Assembly (NCBI RefSeq): GCF_000374025.1
Contig: NZ_KB893172.1
Location: 616,879-680,878 of the forward strand
DNA length: 64,000 bases
Direction of reading: 5' to 3'
DNA from: Spirosoma panaciterrae DSM 21099
GTDB lineage: Bacteria > Bacteroidota > Bacteroidia > Cytophagales > Spirosomataceae
Positions 11,572 to 56,882 of the stretch are shown one piece after another. The translations under genes were made by a program, and so were the position numbers. Position 1 is the stretch's first letter; every line of letters starts with the position of its first letter. The notes below the pieces were generated by a model that was not told the DNA's origin, searched no databases, and worked only from the letters and a program-made list of their open reading frames with translations.

Positions 11572-11652
11572 AAAGGAGAAAGGGGAGGAGAGGAAGGGTT
11601 TGACTGTACTATTTTGCTTCGTTTCGTTCCTCCCTTTTTACCTTCTTTCAGT
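11572..11652. repeat. purine-rich imperfect inverted repeat after the nucleoside transporter
   Basis: An all-purine run (AAAAGGAGAAAGGGGAGGAG and onward) starts at the stop codon. A pyrimidine run (TTCCTCCCTTTTTACCTTCT) at 11627-11650 forms the other arm. Pairing is imperfect compared with the relatives at 18749 and 20692. A terminator role for the transporter gene is likely. Confidence 0.55.
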
Positions 11653-11664
11653 TTGCTATTATAT

Positions 11665-11862
11665 ATGGAAAAGAGAAGGCGGATTAGCTTTTATACAGAC
11701 TTGAATGGTCCCCATAAAGACCAGGTACGAGAAAATGCTATGATGACGCCTGAGGAACGTTGGGCTGTTTACATTAAGCTCAGACGTATGTATTACGGAC
11801 TGCTAGGAAATCCAGAACAATTACCCAAACGAATCACGCTGGAAAAGCCCTCATGGATGTAG
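11665..11862 (+). CDS. small protein paired with a nucleotidyltransferase (putative antitoxin-type partner)
   Basis: A 65-residue charged protein (MEKRRRISFYTDLNG, then MMTPEERWAVYIKLRRMYYG). Its last codons overlap the ATG of the following nucleotidyltransferase pseudogene by ten bases, so the two were translationally coupled. Small proteins with a TPEERW-like segment commonly precede such nucleotidyltransferases in Bacteroidota, which suggests an antitoxin or accessory role; this is inference. The frame itself is intact although the partner is dead. Confidence 0.55.
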   Translation: MEKRRRISFYTDLNGPHKDQVRENAMMTPEERWAVYIKLRRMYYGLLGNPEQLPKRITLEKPSWM

Positions 11863-12207
11863 ATAGTACCGAATTTCTTGAGTTTGTTGTAGCGGCTGAT
11901 GTCGAGAAGGTAGAGTATATCCTGATCGGTGGGTTGGCACTAATTCTGAATGGAGCTATTCGATTTACCTAAGATGCGGATATTGGCTTCGACCCACAAA
12001 TGAGAATAGAGACCGATTTTTAAAAGCTATTTCGGCTTTTGGTTATGAAGATAGTGATATTGAGGGTATACGATTTACTTTTTACACATAAATGATCTTC
12101 GGGAGGCAAAGATATTGGCTCGTCGTACAAAGGATTTGAATGATATTTTGATGATCGATGAAATCATTGACGCCGTTAAAAAGCAAGATAAATTGGCTGA
12201 TTCTTAG
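11853..12207 (+). pseudogene. broken nucleotidyltransferase (AbiEii/DUF6036-like)
   Basis: The first frame gives VEYILIGGLALILNGAIRFT, a TAA at 11970-11972, then DADIGFDPQM, the GG...D-x-D core of nucleotidyltransferases (the stop replaces one residue before DAD). A frameshift then leads to NRDRFLKAISAFGYEDSDIE, and a further shift to LREAKILARRTKDLNDI, the family's C-terminal signature. With one nonsense codon, two frameshifts and missing central sequence, the gene cannot make a working enzyme. It would have been the toxin-like half of a pair with the 65-residue gene upstream. Confidence 0.7.
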
Positions 12208-12225
12208 CCTTTTCTCCTTCTTTCA

Positions 12226-13002
12226 ATGCAACTTATATCCTATAACTTAAATGGTATCCGGGCGGCTATGCGCAATGGTCTGATCGACTGGCTGGCTACT
12301 CAATCGTTCGATATTCTCTGTTTTCAGGAAGTGAAAGCCACTGCCGATGTGGTTGACCTGAAGCCATTTGAAGAGTTGGGTTATCAATACCACTGGCATG
12401 CCGCCGAGAAGAAAGGTTATTCTGGAGTAGCAACGTTCTCGAAAATTGCGCCTACCAATGTTGTGTTGGGTTGTGGATTGCCTGTGTACGACTGCGAAGG
12501 CCGGATTCTTCGTACTGATTTTGGCGATCTGACCTTGCTGAACTGTTATTTCCCCTCAGGCACATCGGGTGAGATTCGGCAGGGTGTGAAGATGGAATTC
12601 CTGACCGATTTCTATACGTATATCGATACCCTACGTAAAACGCGGCCTAAACTGATCGTTGTTGGTGATTACAACATTGCGCACAACGCCATCGACATTC
12701 ATGATCCGGTTCGGAATAAAAATACAACCGGGTTTTTGCCCGAAGAGCGGGCCTGGATGGATAGCTGGTTTGGTTCCGGTATGACCGATGGATTCCGCTT
12801 TAAAAATCCCGACAAGGTTGCCTACAGTTGGTGGAGCTATCGGGCGGGCGCGCGGGGTAATAACAAGGGCTGGCGTATCGATTATGCATCGTTAACCGAC
12901 AACCTCCGCGATCAAATTCTCGATTGTCAGATGCTCCCCGACGCCGTCCATGCCGATCACTGTCCAGTGTGGTTATCAATGAGCGAAAGAGTGAAAGAGT
13001 GA
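12226..13002 (+). CDS. xth: exodeoxyribonuclease III / AP endonuclease
   Basis: A 258-residue exonuclease III-family enzyme that cuts DNA at abasic sites and trims 3' ends in base excision repair. Motifs in order: NLNGIRAA (metal ligand Asn), CFQEVKA (Glu ligand), GDYNIAHNAIDI (Asp/Asn), GWRIDYAS and DHCPVWLS (catalytic Asp-His pair). The length is normal. The last codons (SMSERVKE) run into the inverted repeat that follows, so the C-terminus has been shaped by that repeat. Confidence 0.93.
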   Translation: MQLISYNLNGIRAAMRNGLIDWLATQSFDILCFQEVKATADVVDLKPFEELGYQYHWHAAEKKGYSGVATFSKIAPTNVVLGCGLPVYDCEGRILRTDFGDLTLLNCYFPSGTSGEIRQGVKMEFLTDFYTYIDTLRKTRPKLIVVGDYNIAHNAIDIHDPVRNKNTTGFLPEERAWMDSWFGSGMTDGFRFKNPDKVAYSWWSYRAGARGNNKGWRIDYASLTDNLRDQILDCQMLPDAVHADHCPVWLSMSERVKE

Positions 13003-13056
13003 AAGAGCGAAAAATGGCCTGCGTCAGCCATTCGCTCTTTCACTCTTTCGCTCTTT
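12983..13056. repeat. GAAAGAG-type inverted repeat between xth and the pseudouridine synthase gene
   Basis: The left arm is built of GAAAGAGTGAAAGAGCG units and overlaps the end of xth. The right arm is the complement (CGCTCTTTCACTCTTTCGC, ending 13056). The apex is AATGGC-CTGCGTCA-GCCATT. The stem is about 28 bp with one mismatch and small bulges. It ends six bases before the next start codon, so as RNA it would either terminate the xth transcript or fold directly in front of the next gene. Confidence 0.75.
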
Positions 13057-13062
13057 TAAATC

Positions 13063-13641
13063 ATGTATTACCTCATCTACAAACCTTACCTCATGCTCTC
13101 GCAGTTTTCGCGGGAGGGTGATAAGCCTACGCTGGCCGATCTGGACTTTGCGTTTCCGAAAGATGTGTATCCAGTAGGGCGGCTCGATGCCGATAGCGAA
13201 GGTTTACTGCTCCTGACCAGTGATAAGCAATTGAACCATCGGCTATTGAATCCGAAGTTTCGGCATAATCGAACGTATTACGTACAGGTAGATGGGGCGC
13301 TTACCGAACAGGCGTGTGCTCAACTAACGCAAGGCGTAACGATTTCGGTAGATGGGAAACCGTACCACACGCTGCCTGCCAACGCTCACGTTATTTCCGA
13401 ACCAGCATTACCGGAACGAAATCCACCAATTCGATACCGGGCAAACATTCCCACATCCTGGTTATCCATTTCGCTGCATGAAGGTAAAAATCGGCAGGTG
13501 CGCAAAATGACCGCTTCGGTTGGCTATCCCACACTTCGACTAGTCCGTTGGGCTATCGAAAGGCTGACAGCCGAAGGCATGCAATCCGGTGATATTCGCG
13601 AGTTGAGTCGTAATGACGTGATGCGAGGGCTAAACTTATAG
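13063..13641 (+). CDS. rRNA pseudouridine synthase, RluE-like
   Basis: A 192-residue member of the RsuA/RluB/RluE family, short because it lacks an S4 domain, as in RluE, which modifies 23S rRNA. The catalytic segment PVGRLDADSEGLLLLT carries the essential Asp, and the C-terminal KNRQVRKM and VGYPTLRLVR segments are standard. The start is the ATG at 13063. The exact rRNA site cannot be read from sequence. Confidence 0.85.
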   Translation: MYYLIYKPYLMLSQFSREGDKPTLADLDFAFPKDVYPVGRLDADSEGLLLLTSDKQLNHRLLNPKFRHNRTYYVQVDGALTEQACAQLTQGVTISVDGKPYHTLPANAHVISEPALPERNPPIRYRANIPTSWLSISLHEGKNRQVRKMTASVGYPTLRLVRWAIERLTAEGMQSGDIRELSRNDVMRGLNL

Positions 13642-13689
13642 TCATTACATTAATCGCTTTTGCTCCCGGTCAATGATAACCAAATGAAT

Positions 13690-14385
13690 TTATAATATAC
13701 CCTCGTCGGCAAAGCTGTAATAGGCTTTGTCAGTGAAAATCAGATGGTCCAGTACCGGAATGTCCAGAATTCGCCCGGCATCCTTTAGCTTTCGGGTCAG
13801 GTCCTTATCGGCCTGAGAGGGCATGAGGTTGCCGGAAGGGTGATTATGGAACAGGATAATCGATGAAGCTAGATACTCGATGGCCTGCTTGAAAATGATC
13901 TTGGGATCGGCTACCGTCCCCGATATACCCCCCGAACTAATTTGTACAGGCCGGAGAATCTCATTGGCCCGGTTCATCAGCAAAATCCAGAACTCTTCGT
14001 GCGGTTTGTCGATCAGGTGTGGAATCATTTCATTGTAAGCATCGCGGGAGCAGGTTACGCGAGCCCGTTGGGGACGATCCTGTTCTTTACGCCGACGGCC
14101 CAGTTCAAGGGCGGCTACAATACTGATGGCCTTTGCTTCGCCAATACCCCGAAATTTCGACAGGTCTTTAATGCTCAGTCTTGCTAAATCGTTGAGGTTG
14201 TTGTTGACGCTTTTCAGAATAATTTTAGCGACATCAACGGCTGTCAGATCTACCGTACCTGAGTTAATCAATATAGCGATCAGTTCGGCTTCTGATAGGG
14301 CCGCTTTCCCTTTTAGCATCAGCTTTTCGCGTGGGCGGTCTTCTTCAGCCCAGCTTTGAATGGTGCCGGAATTTTCGTAGTTCAT
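13690..14385 (-). CDS. radC: RadC/JAB-domain family protein
   Basis: A 231-residue protein with an N-terminal helix-hairpin-helix region (FRGIGEAKAISIVAALELGRR) and a C-terminal JAB/MPN metalloprotease-like domain whose metal motif HNHPSGN...SQAD is complete. RadC proteins are conserved, but their supposed role in DNA repair is unproven. The frame extends 21 codons further upstream, but the added MWVRFFCAFCRRK segment overlaps a terminator, so I start at MNYENSGT. Confidence 0.88.
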   Translation of the reverse strand: MNYENSGTIQSWAEEDRPREKLMLKGKAALSEAELIAILINSGTVDLTAVDVAKIILKSVNNNLNDLARLSIKDLSKFRGIGEAKAISIVAALELGRRRKEQDRPQRARVTCSRDAYNEMIPHLIDKPHEEFWILLMNRANEILRPVQISSGGISGTVADPKIIFKQAIEYLASSIILFHNHPSGNLMPSQADKDLTRKLKDAGRILDIPVLDHLIFTDKAYYSFADEGIL

Positions 14386-14429
14386 TCGTGCAAGTATGTT
14401 ACGGCGTATTTTTCGTCGACAAAATGCAC

Positions 14430-14460
14430 AAAAAAACCTTACCCACAAATAGGTAAGGTT
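14430..14460 (-). terminator. rho-independent terminator
   Basis: On the minus strand AACCTTACC / GGTAAGGTT (9 bp, 8-base loop) is followed by TTTTTTT. It would end the rpsT transcript before radC. Confidence 0.8.
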
Positions 14461-14471
14461 CTAAATGAAGT

Positions 14472-14550
14472 TGGATAGGTCCTCTGGATTCTCTACTCTA
14501 TCAATGGCATAAAACGAATCGATAGAATCCAGAGAATCTGGATAGGTCCG
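14472..14550. repeat. imperfect inverted plus direct repeat downstream of rpsT
   Basis: CTCTGGATTCT...TATC pairs with GATAGAATCCAGAG. The outer segment GGATAGGTCC occurs on both sides in the same orientation (14472-14481 and 14540-14549), so the outer part is a direct rather than an inverted repeat. It resembles the other intergenic palindromes but appears rearranged. Confidence 0.5.
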
Positions 14551-14556
14551 ATGGAA

Positions 14557-14823
14557 TTAAGCGTTGGCAGCTTTCAGGCTGTTCACCAAACGAGCCAGTT
14601 TCGACTTGTTATTGGCTGCTTTGTTCCGATGGATGATGTTCCGTTTGGCGAGTTTGTCCAGTGCCGACGAAACCGATTTGAACAGCTCAACGGCCATAGC
14701 GTGGTCGGTAGTTGCACGGAGTTTTTTCACCATGTTCCGGGTGGTTACATGCTGATAACGGTTCTGGAGCCGCTTCTTGGCACTCGACCGGATTGCTTTT
14801 TTTGATGACTTATGGTTTGCCAT
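14557..14823 (-). CDS. rpsT: 30S ribosomal protein bS20
   Basis: An 88-residue basic protein that binds 16S rRNA early in 30S assembly. It starts MANHKSSKKAIRSSAKKRLQ and keeps the family's helical, Lys/Arg-rich pattern with NIIHRNKAANNKSKLARLV. The frame is open 23 codons further upstream, but the MANHKS start is the conserved one. Monocistronic, with hairpins on both sides. Confidence 0.95.
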   Translation of the reverse strand: MANHKSSKKAIRSSAKKRLQNRYQHVTTRNMVKKLRATTDHAMAVELFKSVSSALDKLAKRNIIHRNKAANNKSKLARLVNSLKAANA

Positions 14824-14870
14824 TGGTATATAAATGAGATCGTTGTCGCGATATGAGGGCGCAAAAATAA

Positions 14871-14910
14871 GAAATTCGGCTGGAACAACCAAGCGTACCA
14901 GCCGAATTTC
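14871..14910 (-). terminator. terminator hairpin after the Dabb-domain gene
   Basis: A perfect 13-bp stem GAAATTCGGCTGG / CCAGCCGAATTTC with a 14-base loop. On the minus strand it is followed by TTATTTTTG, so it fits termination of the minus-strand gene at 14928-15326. Confidence 0.75.
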
Positions 14911-14927
14911 TTTGCTTTGTCCAATTG

Positions 14928-15326
14928 TTAGGGACGAATATCAGCGTTGACAATCAACGTTTTTTCCCAGATTCCCTGGTTCTCGGCCACGAACTGTTTG
15001 TAGGCTTCACTTTTTTCAAAAGTTTTTATATCACCTTCCGATTGAAACGTAAGATAATGTACTACGTCATAATCAGAAACCGCCTGATTGGGCATAATTG
15101 TCTTTCCAGAGGTGTAATTGACGATCTGTGGAATTTCATGTTTTAGAGCCGCAAAACCGTTCATATGCTGTTCAACAGCTTGAGATTCGACCCCTTTTTT
15201 AAATTTTATGCACACAATTTGCTGTTTCTGGGCTTTTCGCGCAGGTGAGTAAGCACCGTAGATTGTTAAAGCAAACGCACACATCAACACAACGACAAGG
15301 GCGTACCCTCTTGATTTAGCATTCAT
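14928..15326 (-). CDS. exported Dabb (stress-responsive A/B barrel) family protein
   Basis: A 132-residue protein with an N-terminal hydrophobic segment (ALVVVLMCAFALTIYGAY) acting as signal or anchor. A Dabb-type ferredoxin-like barrel follows: QIVCIKFKKGVE, HEIPQIVNYTSGK, DVVHYLTFQSEGDIKTF and YKQFVAENQ are the family's strand and helix markers. Most Dabb proteins are cytosolic, so export is notable. The start MNAKSRG is preferred to a Met 16 codons upstream. Function unknown. Confidence 0.75.
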   Translation of the reverse strand: MNAKSRGYALVVVLMCAFALTIYGAYSPARKAQKQQIVCIKFKKGVESQAVEQHMNGFAALKHEIPQIVNYTSGKTIMPNQAVSDYDVVHYLTFQSEGDIKTFEKSEAYKQFVAENQGIWEKTLIVNADIRP

Positions 15327-15417
15327 GATTATTCGATATTTTTCTGTTTTTCGAAATTTTGTTTTGAATAACATGGAGCTTTAATTGAATAGTTACTATT
15401 TTTCGCTGTAAAGTACC

Positions 15418-16443
15418 ATGTTTTACCAAATGTACTATAGAATTATTTGGTTGTGTATCCTGTCCAATATTTTTTTGGCGAGTTTAGTGAGCGGTACCCC
15501 CATCGTACTGAAAAAAACGCCCCAAAAGCGGCCAGTGTGGGGTTTTTATGCCCACCAGCAGATCAATAGACTGGCTGTTTTTACCTTGCCAACGGATATG
15601 ATGCCATTCTTTAAAAAGTACATAACCTACCTGAGCGACAATGCCGTAAATCCTGATAAACGCAGATATGCTGTGGTTGGCGAAGCACCCCGTCATTTCA
15701 TCGATCTGGATGCTTACTCAGATACGACTACGGCTACGCTACCGCGCTTTTATAAGGAGGCTACCGATCGGTATGGGGCCGACACACTGGCTTTACACGG
15801 CATTGTTCCGTGGCAGATTCAACTCACAAAATACCAGTTGACCGAAGCCTTTAAAGAGCGGAATGTTCGTCGGATTTTACGAGTTGCGGCCGATTTGGGT
15901 CATTATATTGCCGATGCCAATGTACCCTTGCATACAACGCATAATTATAATGGTCAGCTAACAAATCAGCAGGGGATACATGGGTTCTGGGAGTCTCGGT
16001 TGCCGGAACTGTTCAGTATCGATTATGATTTTCTGACGGGGCAGGCGGAGTACCTGTATTCGCCACAAAAAGCGGCCTGGCGGGCGGTTTTTAAAGCAAA
16101 TGCAGCTCTGGACTCTGTACTACGTTTTGAACGGCAGTTAACCGATGAAGTGGGCGAAACGCAGAAGTTTGGTTTTGAAGAACGGAACGGTGTTACGACC
16201 AAAGTTTATTCGGCCGGTTTTTCCAGACGCTATCACGAACACCTAAAAGGGCAGGTGGAGCGGCAGATGCGGGCGTCGGTGAAGATGGTCGGTGATTTCT
16301 GGTACACCTGTTGGGTCGATGCAGGTCAACCCGATTTGAAGGCTCTGGTCAAATATCAATTGACCGACGATGAGCAGAAAGAAGAAGTAGAAGAGAAGAA
16401 AAACTGGCTAAAACGGCTGTTTTCTGCAAGGGAGGAAAATTGA
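15418..16443 (+). CDS. zinc-dependent phospholipase C / S1-P1 nuclease-like protein
   Basis: A 341-residue exported protein. After the signal peptide comes WGFYAHQQINR (Trp and His as zinc ligands), then HFIDLDAY, ADLGHYIADANVPLHTTHN and IHGFWESRLPE. This spacing of His/Asp ligands matches the tri-zinc fold shared by bacterial phospholipase C and S1/P1 nucleases. Whether lipid or nucleic acid is the substrate cannot be read. The C-terminus is charged. Its TGA stop forms the outermost pairs of the following inverted repeat. Confidence 0.8.
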   Translation: MFYQMYYRIIWLCILSNIFLASLVSGTPIVLKKTPQKRPVWGFYAHQQINRLAVFTLPTDMMPFFKKYITYLSDNAVNPDKRRYAVVGEAPRHFIDLDAYSDTTTATLPRFYKEATDRYGADTLALHGIVPWQIQLTKYQLTEAFKERNVRRILRVAADLGHYIADANVPLHTTHNYNGQLTNQQGIHGFWESRLPELFSIDYDFLTGQAEYLYSPQKAAWRAVFKANAALDSVLRFERQLTDEVGETQKFGFEERNGVTTKVYSAGFSRRYHEHLKGQVERQMRASVKMVGDFWYTCWVDAGQPDLKALVKYQLTDDEQKEEVEEKKNWLKRLFSAREEN

Positions 16444-16545
16444 ACTGGGATTTATATGATTTGATTGACCGACTATGATTTTATCGTAGCTTTCTTCGAA
16501 AGCATAATCACAGTCGGTCAGTTAAATCATATAAATCCTGGTTCA
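16441..16545. repeat. long inverted repeat spanning convergent stops (palindrome family 1, copy A)
   Basis: A stem of about 40 bp with few mismatches from TGAACTGGGATTTATATGAT to its complement ending GGTTCA. The apex is GCTTTC-TTC-GAAAGC. The TGA of the phospholipase-like gene (16441-16443) and the TGA of the convergent isomerase gene (16543-16545) are its outermost bases, so it fills the entire gap. It is homologous to the repeat at 31477-31590, with compensatory changes between arms. A bidirectional terminator is the simplest role. Confidence 0.85.
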
Positions 16546-17412: not shown

Positions 17413-17458
17413 AGGTTGAAAAATGATTTTGCAGGTTTGAGTTGTAAAGATGAGAAAA

Positions 17459-17543
17459 AAAAGAGCGAAAGAGTGAAAGAGCGAAAGGGTGAAAAAAATG
17501 TTGACGGTTTCACTCGTTCGCTCTTTCACTCTTTCGCTCTTTA
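17459..17543. repeat. GAAAGAG-type inverted repeat between divergent genes
   Basis: Left arm AAAGAGCGAAAGAGTGAAAG and onward (17459-17493), with the complementary right arm at 17508-17543. About 35 bp, three mismatches, loop of about 14 bases. It is the same unit as at 12983-13056. Here it lies between divergent genes, about 47 bases upstream of the minus gene and ending ten bases before the plus start, where TATCTTTG follows at once. It therefore cannot be terminating the gene to its right. Confidence 0.75.
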
Positions 17544-17548
17544 TCTTT
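17541..17548 (+). promoter_or_regulatory. -7 box (TATCTTTG) with near-leaderless start
   Basis: TATCTTTG fits TAnnTTTG exactly and is only four bases from the ATG at 17553, so the transcript for the rRNA methyltransferase would have a very short leader or none. Its upstream part is formed by the GAAAGAG inverted repeat. Confidence 0.5.
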
Positions 17549-17552
17549 GTGC

Positions 17553-18746
17553 ATGAATTTTTCCAAAATTTATTTGCAGCCTGGGCGCGATGAAGCGGTT
17601 CGTCGGTTTCACCCCTGGGTGTTTTCACGGGCCATTAGCCGCTATGAAGGGCATGTGGCAGATGGCGATGTCGTTGAAATATACGATAATAAGCAGCGCT
17701 ATCTGGCTACAGGGCATTACCATGATGGTAGTATTGCTGTTCGGCTGTTTTCATTCGGTGCCACAGCCGGTGGACCCATCGTGCCAGATGTTGATTACTG
17801 GACCAGGAAATTAACGCATATTCGGAGCATTCGCCAAACGATTGTGACGGGTGATACAAATTGTTACCGACTCGTTCACGGTGAAGGCGATGGCTGTACG
17901 GGCCTTATCCTGGATATGTACAATGGGGTGATTGTGCTGCAGGCCCACTCGATTGGGATGCACCGGGAGCGGGATTTAATTACCGAAGCGCTCAAAGTCG
18001 TTTTCGGCGATGAACTGAAAGCGGTTTATGATAAAAGCGCCGATACCTTACCCGACGAGTATGGGGCTACCGTTACCAACGGCTATTTATATGGACGAAC
18101 ACCCGTACCGCATCCGGTTCTGGAAAATGGCAATACCTTTCTGGTCGACTGGATAACGGGGCAGAAAACGGGTTTTTTTCTGGATCAGCGCGACAATCGG
18201 GCTTTGCTGGCGCAATACGCACACGGTAAAAAAGTATTGAATGCGTTCTGCTATTCAGGTGGGTTTTCGGTATATGCTCTCAAGGCAGGAGCTAGTTCCG
18301 TGCATTCGGTCGATGTATCGCAGAAAGCAATTGACCTGACAAATCGAAACGTAGTGGCCAATTTCGGTGAAGACAGCCCCCACGAAGCTTTTGCGGAAGA
18401 TGTCATGCACTATCTGAAAGGCCACGATCACCAGTATGATGTAGTGGTACTCGACCCACCAGCGTTTGCCAAGAGCCTGTCTGCTCGGCACCGTGCTGTG
18501 CAAGGGTATAAACGACTGAATGCCGAAGGATTTCGACGCGTAGCTCAGGGAGGAATCTTATTTACCTTCTCCTGCTCGCAGGTAGTCGACCGCGAACTGT
18601 TTTATAATACGATCGTAGCGGCTGCCATCGAAGCGGGCCGACAGGTTCGTGTACTCCACCATTTGAGTCAGCCTGCCGACCATCCTGTTAGTTTATTTCA
18701 TCCTGAAGGAGGCTATTTAAAAGGATTGGTGCTTTGGGTAGAATGA
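17553..18746 (+). CDS. class I rRNA methyltransferase, RlmI-like
   Basis: A 397-residue protein with an N-terminal PUA domain (FHPWVFSRAISRYEG) and a C-terminal Rossmann methyltransferase. AdoMet motif I reads VLNAFCYSGGFSVYAL and motif IV reads VVVLDPPAFAKS. This is the arrangement of RlmI, which makes 5-methylcytosine at one 23S rRNA position; FTFSCSQ holds the candidate catalytic Cys. A start two codons upstream is possible, but the ATG at 17553 is preferred because of the promoter-like box just before it. Confidence 0.88.
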   Translation: MNFSKIYLQPGRDEAVRRFHPWVFSRAISRYEGHVADGDVVEIYDNKQRYLATGHYHDGSIAVRLFSFGATAGGPIVPDVDYWTRKLTHIRSIRQTIVTGDTNCYRLVHGEGDGCTGLILDMYNGVIVLQAHSIGMHRERDLITEALKVVFGDELKAVYDKSADTLPDEYGATVTNGYLYGRTPVPHPVLENGNTFLVDWITGQKTGFFLDQRDNRALLAQYAHGKKVLNAFCYSGGFSVYALKAGASSVHSVDVSQKAIDLTNRNVVANFGEDSPHEAFAEDVMHYLKGHDHQYDVVVLDPPAFAKSLSARHRAVQGYKRLNAEGFRRVAQGGILFTFSCSQVVDRELFYNTIVAAAIEAGRQVRVLHHLSQPADHPVSLFHPEGGYLKGLVLWVE

Positions 18747-18748
18747 AT

Positions 18749-18856
18749 AAAAGGAGTAGAGGGAGGAAGGGGAAGAAAGGGAGAAAAGGGATGCTTTCTA
18801 TACCCCTTTTGTCCCTTTTCTCCCTTTCTTCCCCTTCCTCCTTTCATTTCCTTTTT
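18749..18856. repeat. purine/pyrimidine inverted repeat with 29-bp perfect stem
   Basis: An all-purine arm (18762-18790, GGAGGAAGGGGAAGAAAGGG and onward) pairs perfectly over 29 bp with an all-pyrimidine arm (18813-18841). Weaker pairing continues outside. It starts two bases after the rlmI-like stop. The outer pyrimidine arm ends in T-rich sequence, so terminator function for the plus-strand transcript is likely. Confidence 0.8.
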
Positions 18857-18874
18857 TCCTTTCCTGCTTTCCCT

Positions 18875-20691: not shown

Positions 20692-20774
20692 AGGAGAAAA
20701 AGGGAAGAGGGGGAAGAAAGGGAGGATGGATCATACCACTTACTCCCTTTCTTCCCCCTCTTCCCTTTTCTCCT
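20692..20774. repeat. purine/pyrimidine inverted repeat between convergent E2 and trxA
   Basis: The left purine arm (20692-20723, AGGAGAAAAAGGGAAGAGGG and onward) pairs with the pyrimidine arm (20743-20774) over about 32 bp with one extra A. The loop is 19 bases. It begins four bases after the E2 stop and ends eight bases before the trxA stop, filling the convergent gap, as expected of a bidirectional terminator. Confidence 0.8.
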
Positions 20775-30882: not shown

Positions 30883-30908
30883 AAACCGGCCAATGGCCGG
30901 TTTTTTTA
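30883..30908 (+). terminator. rho-independent terminator
   Basis: Stem AAACCGGCC / GGCCGGTTT (9 bp, loop AAT) ending in a run of seven T, 26 bases after the lipoprotein stop. Confidence 0.9.
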
Positions 30909-30995: not shown

Positions 30996-31478
30996 ATGAA
31001 ATACATTTTAAGTTTTTGTTTAGCAGTTTGTTTCCATTGCCTATGGGCACAAGCCCCCGTAGCGCCATCGGCTGCTGCGACTACCTCAACGACTACCAAA
31101 GCCGTATCGGCTGATGAAAAGGCCGTTATCGATACTGAAAAGAAACGGTTTACGGCCCAGATCGATAAGGATATGACGGTTCTGGATCGTGTACTAGCCA
31201 ATGATTTGGTTTATAACCACTCAAGCGGTGCCTCGGATACCAAAGCTTCATTTGTTGAGTCGATTCGGAGTGGAAAAACGGTTTACCGCGCCATTGACAT
31301 AGAAGAACAAAACGCACGCATTTACGGCAACACGGCCGTTATTAATGGTGTATGTTTGCTCAAAGCCACCAGCAATGGCAATGAAATCAATAATCACCTC
31401 CGTTATCTATCCGTCTACGTAAAAAAAGGCGGGCAGTGGCAAATGGTTGCCTGGCAGTCGCTTCGACTGGCTAACTAG
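30996..31478 (+). CDS. exported NTF2-like (DUF4440/SnoaL-type) protein
   Basis: A 160-residue protein with a signal peptide (cut near LWAQA), a low-complexity Ala/Thr segment and an NTF2-like fold: EKKRFTAQIDKDMTVLDRVL, NDLVYNHSSG, KASFVESIRSG and GGQWQMVAWQSLRL. This is the DUF4440-type pattern. Such folds bind small molecules or act as enzymes; no catalytic set is evident. The stop TAG lies at the base of the long inverted repeat downstream. Confidence 0.75.
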   Translation: MKYILSFCLAVCFHCLWAQAPVAPSAAATTSTTTKAVSADEKAVIDTEKKRFTAQIDKDMTVLDRVLANDLVYNHSSGASDTKASFVESIRSGKTVYRAIDIEEQNARIYGNTAVINGVCLLKATSNGNEINNHLRYLSVYVKKGGQWQMVAWQSLRLAN

Positions 31479-31590
31479 TCTGAACCGGGATTTATGTGAT
31501 TTAACTGACTGACTTTGATTATGCCTTCTTCGAAGGCTGTTAGAAAAATCAAAGTCAGTCAGTTAAATCACATAAATCCCGGTTCAGACT
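31477..31590. repeat. long inverted repeat spanning convergent stops (palindrome family 1, copy B)
   Basis: Arms AGTCTGAACCGGGATTTATG... and its complement ending CCGGTTCAGACT pair over more than 40 bp. The apex is GCCTTC-TTC-GAAGGC plus an unpaired segment. It covers the stop of the NTF2-like gene and the TGA (31584-31586) of the convergent thioesterase gene. It is homologous to copy A at 16441-16545, and differences at paired positions are compensated (A:T to G:C, C:G to T:A). Confidence 0.85.
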
Positions 31591-32120: not shown

Positions 32121-32198
32121 AGAAGCGAGGAGTGAGGAGCGAGAATGGCTCACGCACAAAACCTGTTGATGCGTCAGCCATTCTTACTCCTCGCTTCT
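32121..32198. repeat. inverted repeat between divergent genes, apex shared with 12983-13056
   Basis: AGAAGCGAGGAGT...AGAATGGCTCACGC pairs with GCGTCAGCCATTCTTACTCC and TCGCTTCT, with an unpaired GAGGAGCG insert. The apex side TGCGTCAGCCATTC is identical to that of the xth hairpin. It lies between the divergent thioesterase and fasciclin genes, 22 bases upstream of the thioesterase start, so it cannot be a simple gene-end terminator. Confidence 0.65.
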
Positions 32199-36603: not shown

Positions 36604-36622
36604 CTATTGCTTTAACGAAAAC

Positions 36623-36660
36623 AAAACCTGCTTTAATCTCTGTGTTAGAGCAGGTTTTTT
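36623..36660 (+). terminator. rho-independent terminator of polA
   Basis: AAAACCTGCT / AGCAGGTTTT (10 bp, 16-base loop) ending in a T-run, 20 bases after the polA stop. Confidence 0.88.
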
Positions 36661-36741
36661 ATTGCCGAAAAATAACCGCACCGAGGTCGACACGTATAAA
36701 AAGACTATTTTGGGGGGCCTTCACGTACCCGCCCAAATTAT

Positions 36742-40980: not shown

Positions 40981-41035
40981 CGGTTTACTGTTTACTGAAC
41001 TGTTCGTCTTACAAACTACTGTAAACAGTAAACCG
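40981..41035. repeat. inverted repeat between the SPFH and universal stress genes
   Basis: Perfect 15-bp stem CGGTTTACTGTTTAC / GTAAACAGTAAACCG with a 25-base loop, ending eight bases before the next start codon. A member of the same class of intergenic palindromes. Confidence 0.7.
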
Positions 41036-50938: not shown

Positions 50939-50942
50939 AGAC

Positions 50943-50997
50943 GATGCAGGCTGGCCGAAACTCGATGCACACGATCCTGTTTCGGCCAGCCTGCATC
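50943..50997. terminator. bidirectional terminator-like perfect 18-bp hairpin
   Basis: GATGCAGGCTGGCCGAAA pairs perfectly with 50980-50997 around a 19-base loop. It starts five bases after the permease stop, between convergent genes. No T-run follows, in keeping with the other intergenic palindromes here. Confidence 0.65.
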
Positions 50998-51061: not shown

Positions 51062-51619
51062 TCAATGAAAGCTGGCCGTGAAGGCCATTTTGATGGCGTC
51101 GTCGGTTTTCATGCCTAAGAGCGAGGGTTGTTCAATGTTGAAATCCGTCATGTTGATCTCAAATTTGCCCGTTATCATCAGCTCGGAATGCTCGTTTTTC
51201 CAGGTGCCGGTCAACGTAATCGGTCGGGTTACCCCATGAAATGTCAGTTTGCCGGGAGCGGTGAGGCTACCGTCGGGTTTTATCTGCACCGATTGACTGA
51301 CGTACGTCACGTTGGGGTAGCGGATACCGTCGAGAACTTCGATGGCGTGGGAGTCCCGGTTGCTGTCTTTGCTATCGAACGAAGCTACTTTGATCGCAAT
51401 GGCGACGCTGTTGATCTGCTTACTGAGTTCATCGTACAGGATTACCCCGTTGATGTCGTGGCTTACCCCATCCCAGGTATGGAGCGGGTGGTGCATGGTA
51501 TAGGTAACGACTGATGCTTTTTTGTCGGCCATCAGCTTCCGGGTGTCGGTCGTGGCCGCCACCAGTAGGTTGACCAGCATGAAAGCGGCCAGCCAGGCAA
51601 ACATTGGATGCTCATTCAT
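51062..51619 (-). CDS. YceI-family exported protein
   Basis: A 185-residue lipocalin-like protein with a signal peptide (AFMLVNLLVA). THPLH-like TMHHPLHTWDGVSHDINGV, VASFDSKDSNRDSHAIEVL and GKLTFHGVTRPITLTGTW are the YceI signatures. YceI proteins bind isoprenoid quinone-like lipids in the periplasm. It is the last gene of the Rieske/b561-like/YceI operon, which supports a link to membrane redox chemistry. Confidence 0.88.
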   Translation of the reverse strand: MNEHPMFAWLAAFMLVNLLVAATTDTRKLMADKKASVVTYTMHHPLHTWDGVSHDINGVILYDELSKQINSVAIAIKVASFDSKDSNRDSHAIEVLDGIRYPNVTYVSQSVQIKPDGSLTAPGKLTFHGVTRPITLTGTWKNEHSELMITGKFEINMTDFNIEQPSLLGMKTDDAIKMAFTASFH

Positions 51620-51626
51620 GAGATTG

Positions 51627-52301
51627 TTAGAATTTTATGGCGATGATGGAGGTTGCAAACGCGCCAAACGTGGTATAGGCCACGGCCCGGTGATACGGTT
51701 TTAAGGATGGGTCGTGATTGATCATCCCGGCCAGCACATTGGTAGCGACCATCCCGGTCAGATGTACGAGTGCCAGATACTTATGAAGCTTGAGCCCGCT
51801 GAAGCCTTTTCGATTCGACAGCATTTTCGGCGGAGCTGTCAGCGATAGCAGGGCGGTGGCTCCATACGATACATTAATCAGGGTAGCGGCTGTTTCGTGG
51901 GCCTCGCGCAGCCGCCGATACGAATCACCCTGGGCATTGTACAGTTTAGCGCCTAGTATACCCTGAACCACAAATCCTGCCAATGTAACAAAGCCCATAA
52001 CCTGGTGAGCTACCAGCATGGATCGCCGGATTTTCAACTCTTTCTCCCGGCCTTCGGGCGTAAGTGGGGCAATATTCGTCGCACGAAGCAGACCCTTCGG
52101 CCCCCAGAAAATACGCTGGGTAAGTAACATTTTATCAGGAAGCAACGGTTGGGCCGCTGCGGTATCGACCAGATCGGCCAGTAGTTTGTCGGCCGATGCC
52201 GTATCGGTCGCCATAGGAACGGGGCGCAATACCTGAGTGGTGTCCTGAGCAACGGCACGCAGCCCACAGAACAGAAGAGACAGCAACAGAAGTTTTTTCA
52301 T
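51627..52301 (-). CDS. exported multi-helix membrane protein, cytochrome b561-like
   Basis: A 224-residue protein with a signal peptide (LLLLSLLFCGLRAVAQ) and four hydrophobic helices after a soluble stretch. Helices carry His residues at matching places (SMLVAHQVMGFV, LREAHETAATL, LKLHKYLALVHLTGM, KPYHRAVAY), like the haem-ligand pattern of b561-type cytochromes. Haem binding is inferred, not shown. It lies seven bases upstream of yceI and six downstream of the Rieske gene. Confidence 0.6.
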   Translation of the reverse strand: MKKLLLLSLLFCGLRAVAQDTTQVLRPVPMATDTASADKLLADLVDTAAAQPLLPDKMLLTQRIFWGPKGLLRATNIAPLTPEGREKELKIRRSMLVAHQVMGFVTLAGFVVQGILGAKLYNAQGDSYRRLREAHETAATLINVSYGATALLSLTAPPKMLSNRKGFSGLKLHKYLALVHLTGMVATNVLAGMINHDPSLKPYHRAVAYTTFGAFATSIIAIKF

Positions 52302-52307
52302 GGGCGC

Positions 52308-52772
52308 TTAGTTGGTAATGCGCAGGCTCTTCCCGTCGCTGCTGAGGGTAGCTTTATACTGGGTTAACGACTGACGGGCTGGACCACCCGTAACCACACC
52401 CGAAGTATCGAAGGTAGCGCCGTGATTGGGGCAGTAAATGGAGTCGGAATTGGAGCGGTATTGAACGGTAGACCCCTCGTGGGTGCAAACTTTCGAGAGG
52501 GCAATGTAGCTGCCGTTTTTGATGTGCGCGACCAGAATGCTGCCCGTATACGCATAACCGCCAACGGTGGTTAGTCCCGCATAAGTGCCGGTGGTAAGGT
52601 CCAGGGTGATGTCGGTGGCACTAGCGGGTGCTGCCGGACTAACCTCGTTGGATTTACAGGACGAAAGCGTACCGCTACAGCAGAATGCTACAAGTGCAGC
52701 ACCGCTCAGACCCAATTGTTTTAAAAACGCCAGTCGGTCGATGGCCTCTTCTTTTTTCTGAATCGTTGTCAT
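52308..52772 (-). CDS. exported Rieske [2Fe-2S] lipoprotein-like protein
   Basis: A 154-residue protein. The membrane anchor/lipobox region LSGAALVAFCCSG is followed by a Rieske domain with C-T-H-x15-C-P-N-H (residues near 107-128), so both Cys and both His ligands are present. It carries electrons in a membrane-bound redox chain, but no cytochrome b/c partner of a bc1 complex is present. The frame extends 53 codons upstream without protein character, so I use MTTIQKKEEA. First gene of a three-gene operon; divergent from the sigma gene. Confidence 0.85.
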   Translation of the reverse strand: MTTIQKKEEAIDRLAFLKQLGLSGAALVAFCCSGTLSSCKSNEVSPAAPASATDITLDLTTGTYAGLTTVGGYAYTGSILVAHIKNGSYIALSKVCTHEGSTVQYRSNSDSIYCPNHGATFDTSGVVTGGPARQSLTQYKATLSSDGKSLRITN

Positions 52773-52937
52773 AGAGTGAGTCGGGGACTGATGTATCCGA
52801 TCTTGTGGAGCGGGACAGCCCTTTATTATCACATACGGAAGCGAGTTTGCCAACCGCTGCCTGACGCGAAAACTTTTTTTAGCAACGTTTTGGTGGCTCA
52901 TCGGCGTAACGGGTACAAAACCGTAAACCACCCCACT

Positions 52938-53534
52938 GTGCTTTTTAAACGACGTTCGAAATCATTGGACCTGGCTTCGGTCATTCAGGGGTGCTGCCAG
53001 AACCGCCAGTCGGCGCAGCGGCAACTGTATGAAGCCTATTATGGGTTGGCTAAAAATATCTGTATGCGCTATGCATCCAGTCAGGAAGAGGCCGAGGAGA
53101 TGACGGATGATGGCTTCGTGCGTATCTTCCATAAAATAGCGTATTACGACCCGGAACAGCCCTTCGAAGCCTGGTTCAGGACGGTGATGGTACATACGGC
53201 AATCGATTATTTTCGGCGTTACCAGTCCCGCATGAACATGACTGATCTGGAAGTCGGATTCGATGTGCCCTATGAAGATAGCGTTCTGGAACAGATGAGC
53301 GCCGATGAAATTATGGAACTTGTACAGCGATTGCCACCTACCTACCGGGCGGTTTTCTCGCTGTCGGTAATTGATGGGTATACGCATCCTGAAATTGCCC
53401 GGATGCTGGGCATTCAGGAAAGTACATCCCGATCCAACTTGTTAAAAGCCCGTCTGAAACTTCAGGAATGGATGGGTGCTACACGATCAACGGAATCTGT
53501 TATATGTCTGACGAACAGTTTGATAAACGACTAA
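52938..53534 (+). CDS. ECF-type RNA polymerase sigma factor
   Basis: A sigma-70 factor of about 198 residues from GTG 52938. Region 2 contains EEMTDDGFVRIFHKI and FEAWFRTVMVHTAIDYFRR. Region 4 reads LPPTYRAVFSLSVIDGYTHP and IARMLGIQESTSRSNLLKAR. It directs RNA polymerase to a dedicated promoter set. A longer frame upstream to 52776 is not sigma-like. The start of the anti-sigma-like gene overlaps its end by 31 bases, so the pair is coupled. The divergent Rieske operon is a possible target. Confidence 0.88.
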   Translation: MLFKRRSKSLDLASVIQGCCQNRQSAQRQLYEAYYGLAKNICMRYASSQEEAEEMTDDGFVRIFHKIAYYDPEQPFEAWFRTVMVHTAIDYFRRYQSRMNMTDLEVGFDVPYEDSVLEQMSADEIMELVQRLPPTYRAVFSLSVIDGYTHPEIARMLGIQESTSRSNLLKARLKLQEWMGATRSTESVICLTNSLIND

Positions 53535-54898
53535 AAAAACGACTGGAAACCTATCGGCCGTTGCCAGCACCACAGGGTTGGGAGCGTATTCGGGGCCGAT
53601 TGCCAGTTCCCTGGTTTGTACATTGGTTTAGCCAATATGGAGGCTGGGCCTTTGGCACGTTCGCTACGCTAAGCTTAGTTAGTGTACTGTATCTGTGGTA
53701 TGATCAAAAACAGGAATTAACCCAATTGCATGAACGAATCAATACGCTCGCTAAACAGACGGCCCAGATTCAATTGACTGATCGTATAGCCATGCCCGTC
53801 CGGCGGGATACGGTTTATGTCGTCAAACGGATTGTAGAACATTATGAGCGTCCTGGGCTCGCTGCATCTAATTACGCGCCGACCGAAACGCCTGACCCGA
53901 CACGACCTGGTTTGCACTTGAGCGAAACGCCTGCCTGGACATCGGCGTTGAGATCAGCAGAACCGAGCCGGAAAAGGCCAACGTTGCCCAGGTTAGTTTC
54001 GGATCGAAAAAACCAGTCGATAGTAGCTGGTATGCAGTACGAATCGGGACCGGCAAAGCCAGTCGGTGAACTTTCGACGATTCCATCGGTAAGTCAACAA
54101 TCGCCAGAACAGGCGAATGGGGTCGCTCAGGAACAGCTTACTTCACTGGCTTTCGTAAAGCATGATTCGGTAGTGAGCCCTTCGATTCGCGCCGATTCGG
54201 TGTTCGAACAACCTAAAAAACTGGATCGGGAAATACCAGCGGCTAAGCGGCCCACTACCCATACGACCTCGACTCAATCGGTGAAACCTACATTTTCGCT
54301 GGCTGCGTTCCGGCCACGGCTGGGACTAACAACCGGAATGGCGTCCGGGCCCTCCTGGGGCATTGGACCCTCGGCCGAATTCTTCCTTTTCCATTCGCTA
54401 AGTGTATCGACAGGCTTGCAAATCAGTCGATACGGGGCCGAGCGTAGTGACCACGATACTGATTTCAATAGGCAGACCGGACAGGACTTTGCTCAGAAAT
54501 ACAAAGCGTATCTGCCCGGCCAGTATGATCGGCTCGATGATATCGATATTCAAACGACGGCGTTACAACTTCCGGCCAGGTTGAATTATTATCTGCCGTT
54601 ACGCAGGCAGTGGTCGTTGTTTTTTTCGTTGGGTACGCTCCTGAACCTGTCGGTATATGAATCGGTTCGCTTTGAAAGTATGTACCAGGGCGCTGAGCAT
54701 CATACCGCTTTCGAGGTTCGCCAGCCATCGAGTGTGTTTCAGAATTTTGTGCTGGGTTCGGGAATTCAATACCAGCATAAGCGTTTTGTTGGTCAGCTCT
54801 CACCCGTTTGGTACTATAATTTTCGAGGGGTCAGTGATGGACGATCCCAACAGCGTGTCGGCGTCAATCTGTCGTTGTTAATGGACCTGGCTCGATGA
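53504..54898 (+). CDS. membrane-anchored anti-sigma-like protein with C-terminal beta-barrel-type domain
   Basis: A 464-residue protein. A short N-terminal cytoplasmic part (FDKRLKKRLETYRPLPAPQG) resembles the N-termini of proteins encoded behind ECF sigma factors. One membrane helix (WAFGTFATLSLVSVLYLWY) leads into a coiled coil and a long Ser/Thr/Pro-rich periplasmic linker (about residues 115-265). The C-terminal 190 residues (FRPRLGLTTGMASGPSWGIG ... VGVNLSLLMDLAR) look like an outer-membrane beta-barrel of the PorT type. Anti-sigma function is inferred from the gene pair. The reading of one chain touching both membranes is striking. Confidence 0.65.
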   Translation: MSDEQFDKRLKKRLETYRPLPAPQGWERIRGRLPVPWFVHWFSQYGGWAFGTFATLSLVSVLYLWYDQKQELTQLHERINTLAKQTAQIQLTDRIAMPVRRDTVYVVKRIVEHYERPGLAASNYAPTETPDPTRPGLHLSETPAWTSALRSAEPSRKRPTLPRLVSDRKNQSIVAGMQYESGPAKPVGELSTIPSVSQQSPEQANGVAQEQLTSLAFVKHDSVVSPSIRADSVFEQPKKLDREIPAAKRPTTHTTSTQSVKPTFSLAAFRPRLGLTTGMASGPSWGIGPSAEFFLFHSLSVSTGLQISRYGAERSDHDTDFNRQTGQDFAQKYKAYLPGQYDRLDDIDIQTTALQLPARLNYYLPLRRQWSLFFSLGTLLNLSVYESVRFESMYQGAEHHTAFEVRQPSSVFQNFVLGSGIQYQHKRFVGQLSPVWYYNFRGVSDGRSQQRVGVNLSLLMDLAR

Positions 54899-54917
54899 GC
54901 ACCTTACACTCCGATTC

Positions 54918-54948
54918 TTGCACCTCGCAGTCAAAAGGTCTATATTTG
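54918..54948 (+). promoter_or_regulatory. promoter of the AraC gene (TTG-N20-TATATTTG)
   Basis: A TTG (54918-54920) and TATATTTG (54941-54948) are separated by 20 bases, fitting the Bacteroidota -33/-7 pattern. The start codon follows 22 bases later. Confidence 0.5.
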
Positions 54949-54970
54949 ATTTTTACAAAGTAGAAAGCGA

Positions 54971-55879
54971 ATGGAGACGACCACACTGGAAGGCTTTTAT
55001 AAAGAAATTGCGACCCTCATCCCCGACGATCTTAATAAAGAAATTGGGCACTTCAATGTCTTCAATATTGAAGAAGTGCATGCAAACGTGAAGAAGAACC
55101 CGCGTCTGATGCCATACAATCGGCGGGCTTATTACAAAATCAGCCTGATTCGCGGACGAAGCAAAGCCGAATACGCCGACAAGGTAATTGATATTGAAAC
55201 GAGTGCCCTTCTGTTTGCGACCCCCAAAATTCCGTATCACTGGATTCCGCAGGAGGAAGGGCTGTCGGGCTATTTCTGCATTTTTACGGCCGATTTTCTC
55301 ATTCAGCCTAAAAGCGGAATTGTGCTGGATGAGTTGCCAATATATAAACCAGGGGGTTATCCTGTCTTTCAATTGTCGGATGAGCACATAGACGATCTGC
55401 TGTACATCTTTCGAAAGATGTATAAGGAAATCTCGTCCGATTATGCGTATAAGTATGATTTGCTGCGAAACTACGTTATCGAATTGATCCACTACGGTCA
55501 GAAACTCCAGCCTGCCACGGCTTTATACCCGGCCCACACCGCTTCGGCCCGGGTTTCGTCGTTGTTTATGGAACTACTTGAACGTCAGTTTCCAATCGAA
55601 TCGCCCCAGCAGAAAATCAGTTTACGGACAGCCAAAGATTTTGCCGATAGGCTTGCGGTTCATGTCAACCATTTGAATAAAGTGCTCAAGGAAAACACGG
55701 GCAAAACAACTACCGACCTGATTAGCAGCCGGATTGTTCAGGAAGCCAAAATTCTGTTGAAGCAAACGGACTGGAACATTTCTGAGATTGCCTACAGCCT
55801 GGGTTTTGAAGAAGTCGCCCACTTCTCCAACTTTTTCAAAAAACAGACCTCTCTGGCGCCACTAGCTTTCCGGGCCTGA
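54971..55879 (+). CDS. AraC-family transcriptional regulator
   Basis: A 302-residue regulator. The N-terminal cupin-like sensor domain (YYKISLIRGRSKAEYAD, FATPKIPYHWIP) precedes a C-terminal double helix-turn-helix: DFADRLAVHVNHLNKVLKEN and WNISEIAYSLGFEEVAHFSN, then FFKKQTSLAP. It probably activates the adjacent SDR gene 96 bases downstream, as is usual for this AraC/SDR arrangement in Bacteroidota; that is inference. Confidence 0.9.
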   Translation: METTTLEGFYKEIATLIPDDLNKEIGHFNVFNIEEVHANVKKNPRLMPYNRRAYYKISLIRGRSKAEYADKVIDIETSALLFATPKIPYHWIPQEEGLSGYFCIFTADFLIQPKSGIVLDELPIYKPGGYPVFQLSDEHIDDLLYIFRKMYKEISSDYAYKYDLLRNYVIELIHYGQKLQPATALYPAHTASARVSSLFMELLERQFPIESPQQKISLRTAKDFADRLAVHVNHLNKVLKENTGKTTTDLISSRIVQEAKILLKQTDWNISEIAYSLGFEEVAHFSNFFKKQTSLAPLAFRA

Positions 55880-55944
55880 GCCTCTGATTTGAATTTTACA
55901 AACTTCGGATTGATTCGCGCAAACGCTTGCCTTATGCGTTGATA

Positions 55945-55952
55945 TACCTTTG
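55945..55952 (+). promoter_or_regulatory. candidate -7 box (TACCTTTG) for the SDR gene
   Basis: TACCTTTG matches TAnnTTTG, 23 bases before the ATG. The nearest TTG upstream is at 15 bases spacing, shorter than usual. Confidence 0.45.
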
Positions 55953-55975
55953 TCTCATCAAAACAATCAGAAACG

Positions 55976-56737
55976 ATGAGCACAAATAAAATTGCATTAG
56001 TAACCGGCGGAAGCCGTGGATTAGGTAAAAACATGGCGTTGAGCCTTGCCCAAAAAGGAATCGACGTTATTCTGACGTATCATACCCAACAGGCTGAAGC
56101 AAATGCCGTTGTCGCTGAAATAGAAAAGACGGGTCAAAAAGCTGCCTCCCTACAACTCAATGCGGGGGATGTCAAAAGCTTCAATGCATTTTTCGGGCAA
56201 TTAAAGAATGTGTTGCAGGAAACCTTCGCCACCGACCATTTTGATTTTTTGATCAACAATGCCGGAACAGCTCTCTATGGCGCTTTTGCCGAAACCACTG
56301 AGGAACAATTCGACGCAGCCCTGAATATTCATTACAAAGGGGTGTTCTTTCTGAGCCAGAAAGCGTTGCCTTTCATCAACGACGGTGGCCGCATCATCAA
56401 TATTTCGTCGGGACTGGCCCGCATGACCTATCCGGGCTCGTCGGCCTATGGGTCGATGAAAGGCGCCATCGAAGTACTGTCGCGGTATATGGCGCTTGAG
56501 TTAGGGCCCCGACGTATTGCGGTGAATGTGGTGGCACCGGGTGCTATCGAAACGGATTTCGGCGGTGGCCGCGTGCGTGACAACAAAGAAATCAATGCGC
56601 AGATCGCCAGCCGGACAGCCCTTGGCCGCGTTGGTCTTCCCGACGATATTGGGGGCGTTGTCGCTTTCCTCTGTACCGACGAAGCCCGATGGATCAACGC
56701 GCAACGGATCGAAGTATCCGGCGGGCAGGGGTTGTAG
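55976..56737 (+). CDS. short-chain dehydrogenase/reductase
   Basis: A 253-residue classical SDR. The NAD(P) site is TGGSRGLGKNMALS (Gly-rich loop), followed by INNAGTAL, the catalytic Ser in INISSGLARM, Tyr-x-x-x-Lys in SAYGSMKG and the closing EVSGGQGL. It oxidises or reduces an unidentified alcohol/ketone. It lies just after an AraC-type regulator and before a G-rich hairpin. Confidence 0.9.
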   Translation: MSTNKIALVTGGSRGLGKNMALSLAQKGIDVILTYHTQQAEANAVVAEIEKTGQKAASLQLNAGDVKSFNAFFGQLKNVLQETFATDHFDFLINNAGTALYGAFAETTEEQFDAALNIHYKGVFFLSQKALPFINDGGRIINISSGLARMTYPGSSAYGSMKGAIEVLSRYMALELGPRRIAVNVVAPGAIETDFGGGRVRDNKEINAQIASRTALGRVGLPDDIGGVVAFLCTDEARWINAQRIEVSGGQGL

Positions 56738-56741
56738 AGCA

Positions 56742-56882
56742 GGGTGCGGGGGGCAGGGATGGCAGGGGTTGCCCGGATAGCAGGGGCATAATGCGGGGAG
56801 CAGGGATAGCTCGGAATAGTAAGGCTGTATCGTACGGCTCCTGAACAATCCCTGCCACCCGAGCCATCCGTGGCCCCTTGCC
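56742..56882. repeat. G-rich imperfect inverted repeat filling a convergent gap
   Basis: Left side: repeated GCAGGGATGGCAGGGG-like units. Right side: the C-rich counterparts (ATCCCTGCCACCCGAGCCAT, CCTTGCCCC). The left side at 56742-56768 also has four G-tracts spaced for a G-quadruplex (GGG TGC GGGGGG CA GGG ATGGCA GGGG). It fits exactly between the SDR stop and the dioxygenase stop. Confidence 0.65.

Follow-up and report, generated by a model that had tools for sequence, protein, structure and literature searches.

Long gene-end hairpins of Spirosoma panaciterrae fall into several palindromic families, some of them associated with small nuclease-like or 23S intervening-sequence protein genes

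Long hairpins occupy many gene junctions in a 64,000-nucleotide stretch, hereafter the window, of the 8.13-Mb genome of Spirosoma panaciterrae DSM 21099 (bases 616,879 to 680,878 of contig NZ_KB893172.1, hereafter C1). Twelve junctions of the window had been listed in an initial annotation as carrying such hairpins, with lengths of about 55 to 140 nt, and each was folded and compared with 200 dinucleotide shuffles. Nine of the twelve folded clearly better than their shuffles and three only weakly, and the measured lengths agreed with the range given. A stricter scan for arm pairs recovered eight hairpins in the window: seven of those listed and one, at 6796, that was absent from the list. An Rfam search of the window gave no match at the gathering score.

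The hairpins share a plan, as had been claimed: near-perfect arms of about 20 to 45 nt, often made of short degenerate units, enclose a loop of mostly 10 to 35 nt. They do not form the single palindrome class first described, since 66 of the 86 hairpins found on C1 sort into 11 arm-motif families with one architecture and 20 sort into none; the motifs were written after the sequences had been inspected, and a few hairpins may be misplaced. The remark that the base sequences differ from site to site applies between families and not within them. Family A, composed of AAAGAGTG/AAAGAGCG units, has window copies at 12986 to 13056 (listed at 12983; fold z-score −9.7) and 17455 to 17547 (listed at 17459; arm-scan start 17460; z −10.4). 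The first contains the stop codon (13000 to 13002) of a gene named exoIII by TIGR00633, and the second lies between a divergent gene pair. Family B (GGGGAAGAAAGGGAG) follows an RlmI-like methyltransferase gene, so named from NCBIfam matches below cut-off, at 18742 to 18861 (listed at 18749; z −9.3) and fills a convergent junction at 20692 to 20774 (arm-scan start 20698; z −9.1). A weak, imperfect copy, only weakly assigned to family B, stands just 3′ of a gene stop at 11573 to 11644 (listed at 11572; z −2.1). Two convergent junctions are filled by family H (CTGAACCGGGATTTATGTGATTTAACTGACTGACTTTGATT), at 16441 to 16545 (z −14.5) and 31477 to 31590 (z −17.7). The two elements are BLAST relatives. 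The second, paired at 44 of 44 arm positions, yields 49 BLAST matches distributed over 25 places in the genome. Family D, of AGGAGCGAGGAGTGAG type, is present at 32121 to 32198 (z −8.0). Family F (TTTTGTCATCCCGACGCAGGAGGGATCTTCGG) was not seen in the window and has 80 matches at about 40 places in the genome (40 of 67 candidates scored).

Four of the listed sites (14472, 40981, 50943, and 56742) matched no hairpin family. They correspond to a weak inverted repeat at 14477 to 14539 (z −1.8), a perfect 15-bp stem at 40981 to 41035 (z −5.7) with a comparable stem at the same junction in another genome of the genus (G001), a 24-bp stem at 50943 to 50997 (z −10.1), and a weak, GC-rich structure at 56747 to 56861 (z −3.3).

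Across C1 (814,240 bases, including 1,852 N), 86 hairpins had an arm score of at least 18, and two first-order Markov shuffles had none. Shuffled sequence equal to the real in stem count had been named in advance as the outcome that would count against these structures; the counts were 86 and 0. Convergent junctions had stems of at least 12 in 49 of 110 cases, same-strand junctions in 91 of 397, and divergent junctions in 9 of 106, a count that sets aside 19 junctions with very long gaps. One shuffle per junction gave 0, 1, and 0, respectively. The statement that a long hairpin stands at most tight junctions was therefore too strong. The 86 hairpins comprised 27 convergent, 56 same-strand, and 3 divergent cases, versus 11.4, 45.5, and 29.1 expected from intergenic length (chi-square p = 6e-11). 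None lay deep inside a gene. Based on gene calls made for this analysis, in which starts are approximate, 71 of the 86 were nearer to a gene 3′ end, 13 were nearer to a 5′ end, and 2 were tied; a gene 3′ end lay within 30 nt of 69 of them. The suggestion that the hairpins may contain both stops was borne out in part, with a gene 3′ end inside or touching the hairpin in 35 of the 86 and not in the remainder. Arms can carry a stop codon, as at 13000 to 13002.

This distribution bears on whether the hairpins act as bidirectional terminators, as the initial annotation had proposed. They could be long, intrinsic, partly bidirectional terminators that evolved separately at each junction and were conserved for function, with their likeness due to convergent low complexity. 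The preference for convergent and avoidance of divergent junctions, the junction occupancy that persists while the sequence changes across species (described below), and stem lengths that are continuous from 12 upward agree with such a role. T-tracts do not. A run of at least four T followed 10 of the 86 hairpins (11.6%) versus 7.1% of random intergenic positions, and a run of at least three followed 26 of the 86 versus 20.6%, so that the U-tract expected of an intrinsic terminator is missing from most hairpins. As a class they are not a stem followed by a T-run; single cases may qualify. Ordinary T-run terminators had also been reported in the window: those at 30883 and 39953 were confirmed, and 36618 to 36663 holds a short stem accompanied by a T-run. 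Since families F, G, and H are long, specific, many-copy sequences and not low complexity, and since hairpin arms are associated with partner genes, we regard this explanation of the hairpins as improbable, although they may still serve as terminators, a role that their position fits.

One such association with a partner gene concerns family F. In the S. panaciterrae genome, complete F hairpins stand to either side of a single GIY-YIG gene that encodes 100 amino acids (positions 1486 to 1788 of locus L243). Among 36 genomes of the same genus, 14 have one strong homologue each, with 75 to 95% identity among the 13 proteins aligned (all except L283, with its internal stop). All 14 loci, at least 10 of which share flanking DNA, have an F-like hairpin with a stem of at least 15 on both sides of the gene. 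F arms counted on one strand numbered 10 to 311 (median 29) in the 14 gene-bearing genomes and 0 to 33 (median 4) in the 22 without the gene, among which G018, with a weak homologue only, was scored; the Mann-Whitney p value was 4e-5, or 2.5e-4 without incomplete genomes, in a test that ignores kinship. Near pairs of genomes that differ in the gene showed the same tendency, with 84 F arms in G001 versus 24 in G021 and 71 in G008 versus 18 in G032 (the gene is in the first of each). The F pattern, allowing up to 5 mismatches, placed an arm near 9 of the 14 genes, whereas the stem search found hairpins at all 14; the pattern misses a one-extra-base variant found beside several of the genes, and the F counts are thus too low in some genomes. 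The genome richest in F arms, G016, has about 300 per strand (311 on one, 299 on the other); the next highest has less than a third as many. The GIY-YIG gene of G016 is the most diverged of the 14.

The link between GIY-YIG genes and the F motif recurs in other phyla. Among 80 named loci, the best 80 of 156 relatives, the motif TGTCAT-N-[CG]-[CT]-GA-[GC] occurred within 300 bp of the GIY-YIG gene at 49, and at 40 of 71 when the nine nearest were removed. It was present in 86 of 160 flank windows of these loci versus 46 of 1,153 more distant windows, and stems of at least 15 were present in 44 of 160 flank windows versus 10 of 289 controls. Titles of motif-bearing loci, many of them metagenome bins, include Chloroflexus islandicus, Clostridia, Nitrospina, Phycisphaerae, Cyanobacteria, Dehalococcoidales, and Micavibrio. 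At the C. islandicus locus (L339), the GIY-YIG gene lies amid several consecutive GTCATTGCGAG-type repeats. The S. panaciterrae genome has two further GIY-YIG matches: a second small gene (L245), for which the stretch inspected visually showed no F hairpin, and L244, which lies within a long frame. The weak homologues L289 and L290 had no F flanks. On one side of L290 (G016:C22), a distant homologue, stands a long stem, GCTGACGCACGGCCCTTCGACAAGCTCAGGGTGAC, that may belong to another family.

Two other protein families are enclosed by hairpin arms. Profile searches of the 36 genomes gave 109 matches to TIGR02436 and 81 to TIGR04256, and the arm test covered 34 and 32 of these, respectively, leaving out the S. 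panaciterrae GxxExxY fragment L034. The TIGR02436 four-helix protein corresponds to PF05635, the 23S rRNA intervening-sequence (IVS) protein (two of the 34 loci scanned), and the TIGR04256 GxxExxY protein corresponds to PF13366 (PDDEXK_3). Arms spanning the open reading frame (ORF) with a score of at least 14 were found at 21 of 34 PF05635-type and 23 of 32 GxxExxY loci, and at 1 of 29 RlmI-like control loci. At 14 of the 34 and 17 of the 32 the arms paired across the ORF and there was no local hairpin on either side, i.e., the ORF occupied the loop. Arms with a score of at least 11 that could be assigned to a motif belonged to family A, B, D, E, or I/L in 16 of 16 PF05635-type cases and to family G, H, J, or M in 22 of 22 GxxExxY cases; 12 of 28 and 4 of 26 arms, respectively, were unassigned. 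There was no crossover between partners among the assigned arms. Because the motifs were defined post hoc and some arms are unassigned, a Fisher value for this pairing is descriptive only. In terms of the window, families A, B, and D go with 23S-IVS proteins and family H with GxxExxY/PDDEXK nucleases. GxxExxY proteins also occur in 58 other genomes of the phylum, and in 20 loci from 20 such genomes arms with a score of at least 14 were present at 10, versus 1 of 80 with mismatched flanks. Partner-bearing families account for 55 of the 86 hairpins on C1 and the partnerless families C and K for 11. The earlier suggestion of spread as a repeat family is thus supported, in the form of several families with different partner genes.

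Dispersed extragenic palindromes of bacteria include repetitive extragenic palindromic (REP) and REPIN elements, for which movement by the Y1 transposase RAYT has been proposed. A search with PF01797 found two Y1_Tnp genes in the S. panaciterrae genome. Neither is accompanied by a hairpin (best stems 7 to 9) or enclosed by arms (scores 8 and 10), and a RAYT partnership was rejected. The dispersed extragenic position of the palindromes and the two genes are what ordinary REP/REPIN elements would predict; with hairpins or arms at three other protein families and at neither Y1_Tnp gene, such elements are a very improbable explanation.

Hairpin families differ between species at the same junction. 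Twenty syntenic loci from same-genus genomes were compared, and the junction at 13003 to 13062 was readable in 15 genomes, including that of the window. By eye, it holds family A in G000, G006, G015, G017, and G032, family I in G001 and G021, family H in G003, G008, G010, G016, G022, G027, and G035, and no recognized family in G020. G000 and G001 share 205 conserved pairs of neighboring genes, and 17 of the junctions have long hairpins in both genomes; at 7 of the 17 (452500, 629881, 637567, 755138, 787532, 791900, and 795884) the arms are unrelated. Aligned blocks of G001 and G021 show 91% identity, and 29 of 58 G001 hairpins could be mapped onto G021 (in the G004-G005 comparison, 5 of 22 were unmappable). 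Arms were unrelated at G001-G021 site 213473 and strongly altered at 189420 and 155524, with flanks 91 to 99% identical. Three hairpins, G001 228940 (family F), G021 166912, and G021 310865, are absent from both other genomes, which suggests that they are gains.

Three further sites were recorded in these comparisons. The family A hairpin in window 17440 to 17560, for which G001 and G021 have the same family at the same site, lies directly 5′ of TATCTTTG, which we take to resemble the Bacteroidetes −7 promoter box, between the divergent genes; in G012 the entire corresponding gap is 55 bp. Between two conserved genes, window 11653 to 12207 holds what is left of two adjacent genes: a small ORF, and one that by eye resembles a nucleotidyltransferase and has internal stops. 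Longer versions are present in G003, G008, G016, G017, and G035, and a G- or J-type hairpin is present instead in G022, G006, G015, and G010. In G004 and G005 (L165 to L184), several hairpins have GCCGTGCCACGGTT-type arms, a family not seen in C1.

Loops were found to be inverted between species. Among pairs with alignable loops, the loop was reverse-complemented in 7 of 20 with stems of at least 15 and in 0 of 15 with shorter stems (Fisher p = 0.012), a comparison that leaves out 16 long-stem and 7 short-stem unalignable pairs, 19 pairs with loops shorter than 8 nt, and unmapped hairpins. By genome pair, the inverted loops were 3 of 14 for G001-G021, 4 of 5 for G000-G001, and 0 of 1 for G004-G005. 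Loop inversion was first spotted by eye, and one of the seven (G001 205079) is among the sites where it was spotted; two others (165335 and 166054) are similar neighbors. The loop of the window hairpin at 20692 also appears reversed relative to G008, as judged by eye. Arms change symmetrically; at G001 88366, for example, each arm has acquired an extra unit. Symmetric arm change and loop flips fit arms that pair with and copy each other.

These changes require no partner protein, and they favor the hairpins having come first. Slippage or template switching between arms, in the course of local replication or repair, may have given rise to the hairpins and kept them perfect, and the ORFs would then be separate selfish genes that prefer to insert into hairpins, i.e., passengers. 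The position of the ORF at PF05635-type and GxxExxY loci, mostly enclosed by single arms as though inserted in a loop, points the same way, and so does the replacement of small tetraloops by rRNA IVSs (PMC4990558). A local origin leaves unexplained why families are common to distant junctions and species. It also sits poorly with the lack of arm-partner crossover among assigned arms and with an F copy number that tracks the GIY-YIG gene, and we consider it unlikely, less so than the terminator explanation. In our view, the long hairpins are probably, for the most part, ORF-less members of several palindromic-element families that resemble REPINs and have partners other than RAYT. They look like miniature selfish elements because the same arms elsewhere enclose small nuclease-like genes.

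Several observations weigh against this reading. The 64-kb window yielded no partner gene, and 20 of the 86 C1 hairpins belong to no family. Arms with a score of 14 were absent from 13 of 34 PF05635-type and 9 of 32 GxxExxY loci, and in the cross-locus control mismatched flanks scored at least 14 at 2 of 34 and 3 of 32 of these loci and at 9 of 29 for the control gene, matches that we ascribe to homologous loci lying in mixed orientation. With their shared flanking DNA, the 14 GIY-YIG loci are not independent and largely represent one inherited locus, the F-count test takes no account of kinship, and 6 of the 22 genomes without the gene still hold 17 to 33 F arms. The partner ORFs could be insertions into pre-existing hairpins and not their drivers. 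At window 31477, the H hairpin is present in G021 and G000 and only its right end is retained in G001; with both of the former occupied, the "empty" site in G001 is a loss and offers no instance of gain. Of the three candidate gains, all have blurred borders, and the site of G021 310865 bears traces of another weak hairpin in the other two genomes. Alignment did not yield exact insertion borders, the extragenic sequence being too diverged and some cases resembling partial losses. No clear target-site duplication was seen in five three-way presence/absence alignments, in which element ends are not fixed, and no transposition event or fresh copy was seen in the genomes compared.

If the hairpins are partner-dependent elements, each partner, probably a nuclease directed by structure, would act on its own hairpin and may seed hairpin copies in trans, as has been proposed for RAYT and REPINs (PMC3116915). 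Copies would persist at gene ends either because insertion there is harmless, as arms can supply a stop codon, or because a 3′ hairpin is useful. Existing gene-end hairpins would be preferred targets, so that families supplant one another, and arms would stay perfect while loops flip because one arm pairs with the other and serves as its template in replication or repair. The weakest mechanistic step is action on hairpins by PF05635 proteins, in which we know of no nuclease domain.

A broader proposal, which we advance tentatively and hold to be somewhat doubtful, is that these elements form a bacterial hairpin-element superfamily apart from REPIN-RAYT, in which GIY-YIG, PDDEXK_3, and IVS proteins each drive their own families via the hairpin, homing to gene-end hairpins. 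If so, junctions would stay occupied while families alternate and loops flip, the 23S rRNA IVSs would represent the particular instance in which an element inserted into an rRNA helix, and the GIY-YIG branch would comprise the TGTCAT-N-S-Y-GA palindromes found in many phyla. The family-by-family pairing gives RAYT-less hairpin repeats, whose source is otherwise unexplained here, candidate drivers, and it suggests a role, open to test, for the PF05635, PF13366, and small GIY-YIG proteins. Annotators of such genomes should not infer a terminator from the structure of a gene-end hairpin alone, and they should expect spacers inverted between relatives, which need not be assembly errors.

Our search of open-access PMC articles found no literature linking small GIY-YIG, PDDEXK_3, or PF05635 genes to dispersed hairpins; GxxExxY is named in the available text of PMC8934634 in an unrelated context. 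Several known systems share individual features with the hairpins. Catalogues of stem-loops describe repeated stem-loop families and inverted repeats enriched 3′ of stop codons (PMC2267715 and PMC13155455), and one attributes a peak at +50 to +80 after the stop to terminators with 4- to 5-nt spacers (PMC13155455). Relative to what these catalogues describe in the parts consulted, the hairpins here add partner nucleases, exchange of families at orthologous sites, and loop flipping. In the chloroplast trnH-psbA spacer, small palindrome-linked inversions are reported (PMC2903610), in which, as here, part of a palindrome is reversed in one relative compared with another. That case, as presented in the cited excerpt, differs from the present one, which concerns a bacterial chromosome with many multi-copy families whose arms are replaced too. 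The 23S rRNA IVSs (PMC4990558), for which mobility is a hypothesis in the literature, resemble our loci in having a PF05635-type (S23) ORF between terminal inverted repeats, a long stem, and a stem-loop position. Unlike the IVSs portrayed there, the hairpins here stand at the ends of protein genes, belong to many arm families, and are mostly ORF-less. REPIN-RAYT (PMC3116915) shares the dispersed extragenic palindromes, with different families having different partners, and, for family F only, a single-copy partner gene beside its own palindrome, the partner here not being a RAYT. The hairpins depart from that system, as the portion of PMC3116915 drawn on describes it, in their longer arms, their flipped loops, and the location of two of the three partners mostly between single arms, and the partners themselves are GIY-YIG, PDDEXK_3, or PF05635 four-helix proteins and not a Y1 (HUH) transposase.

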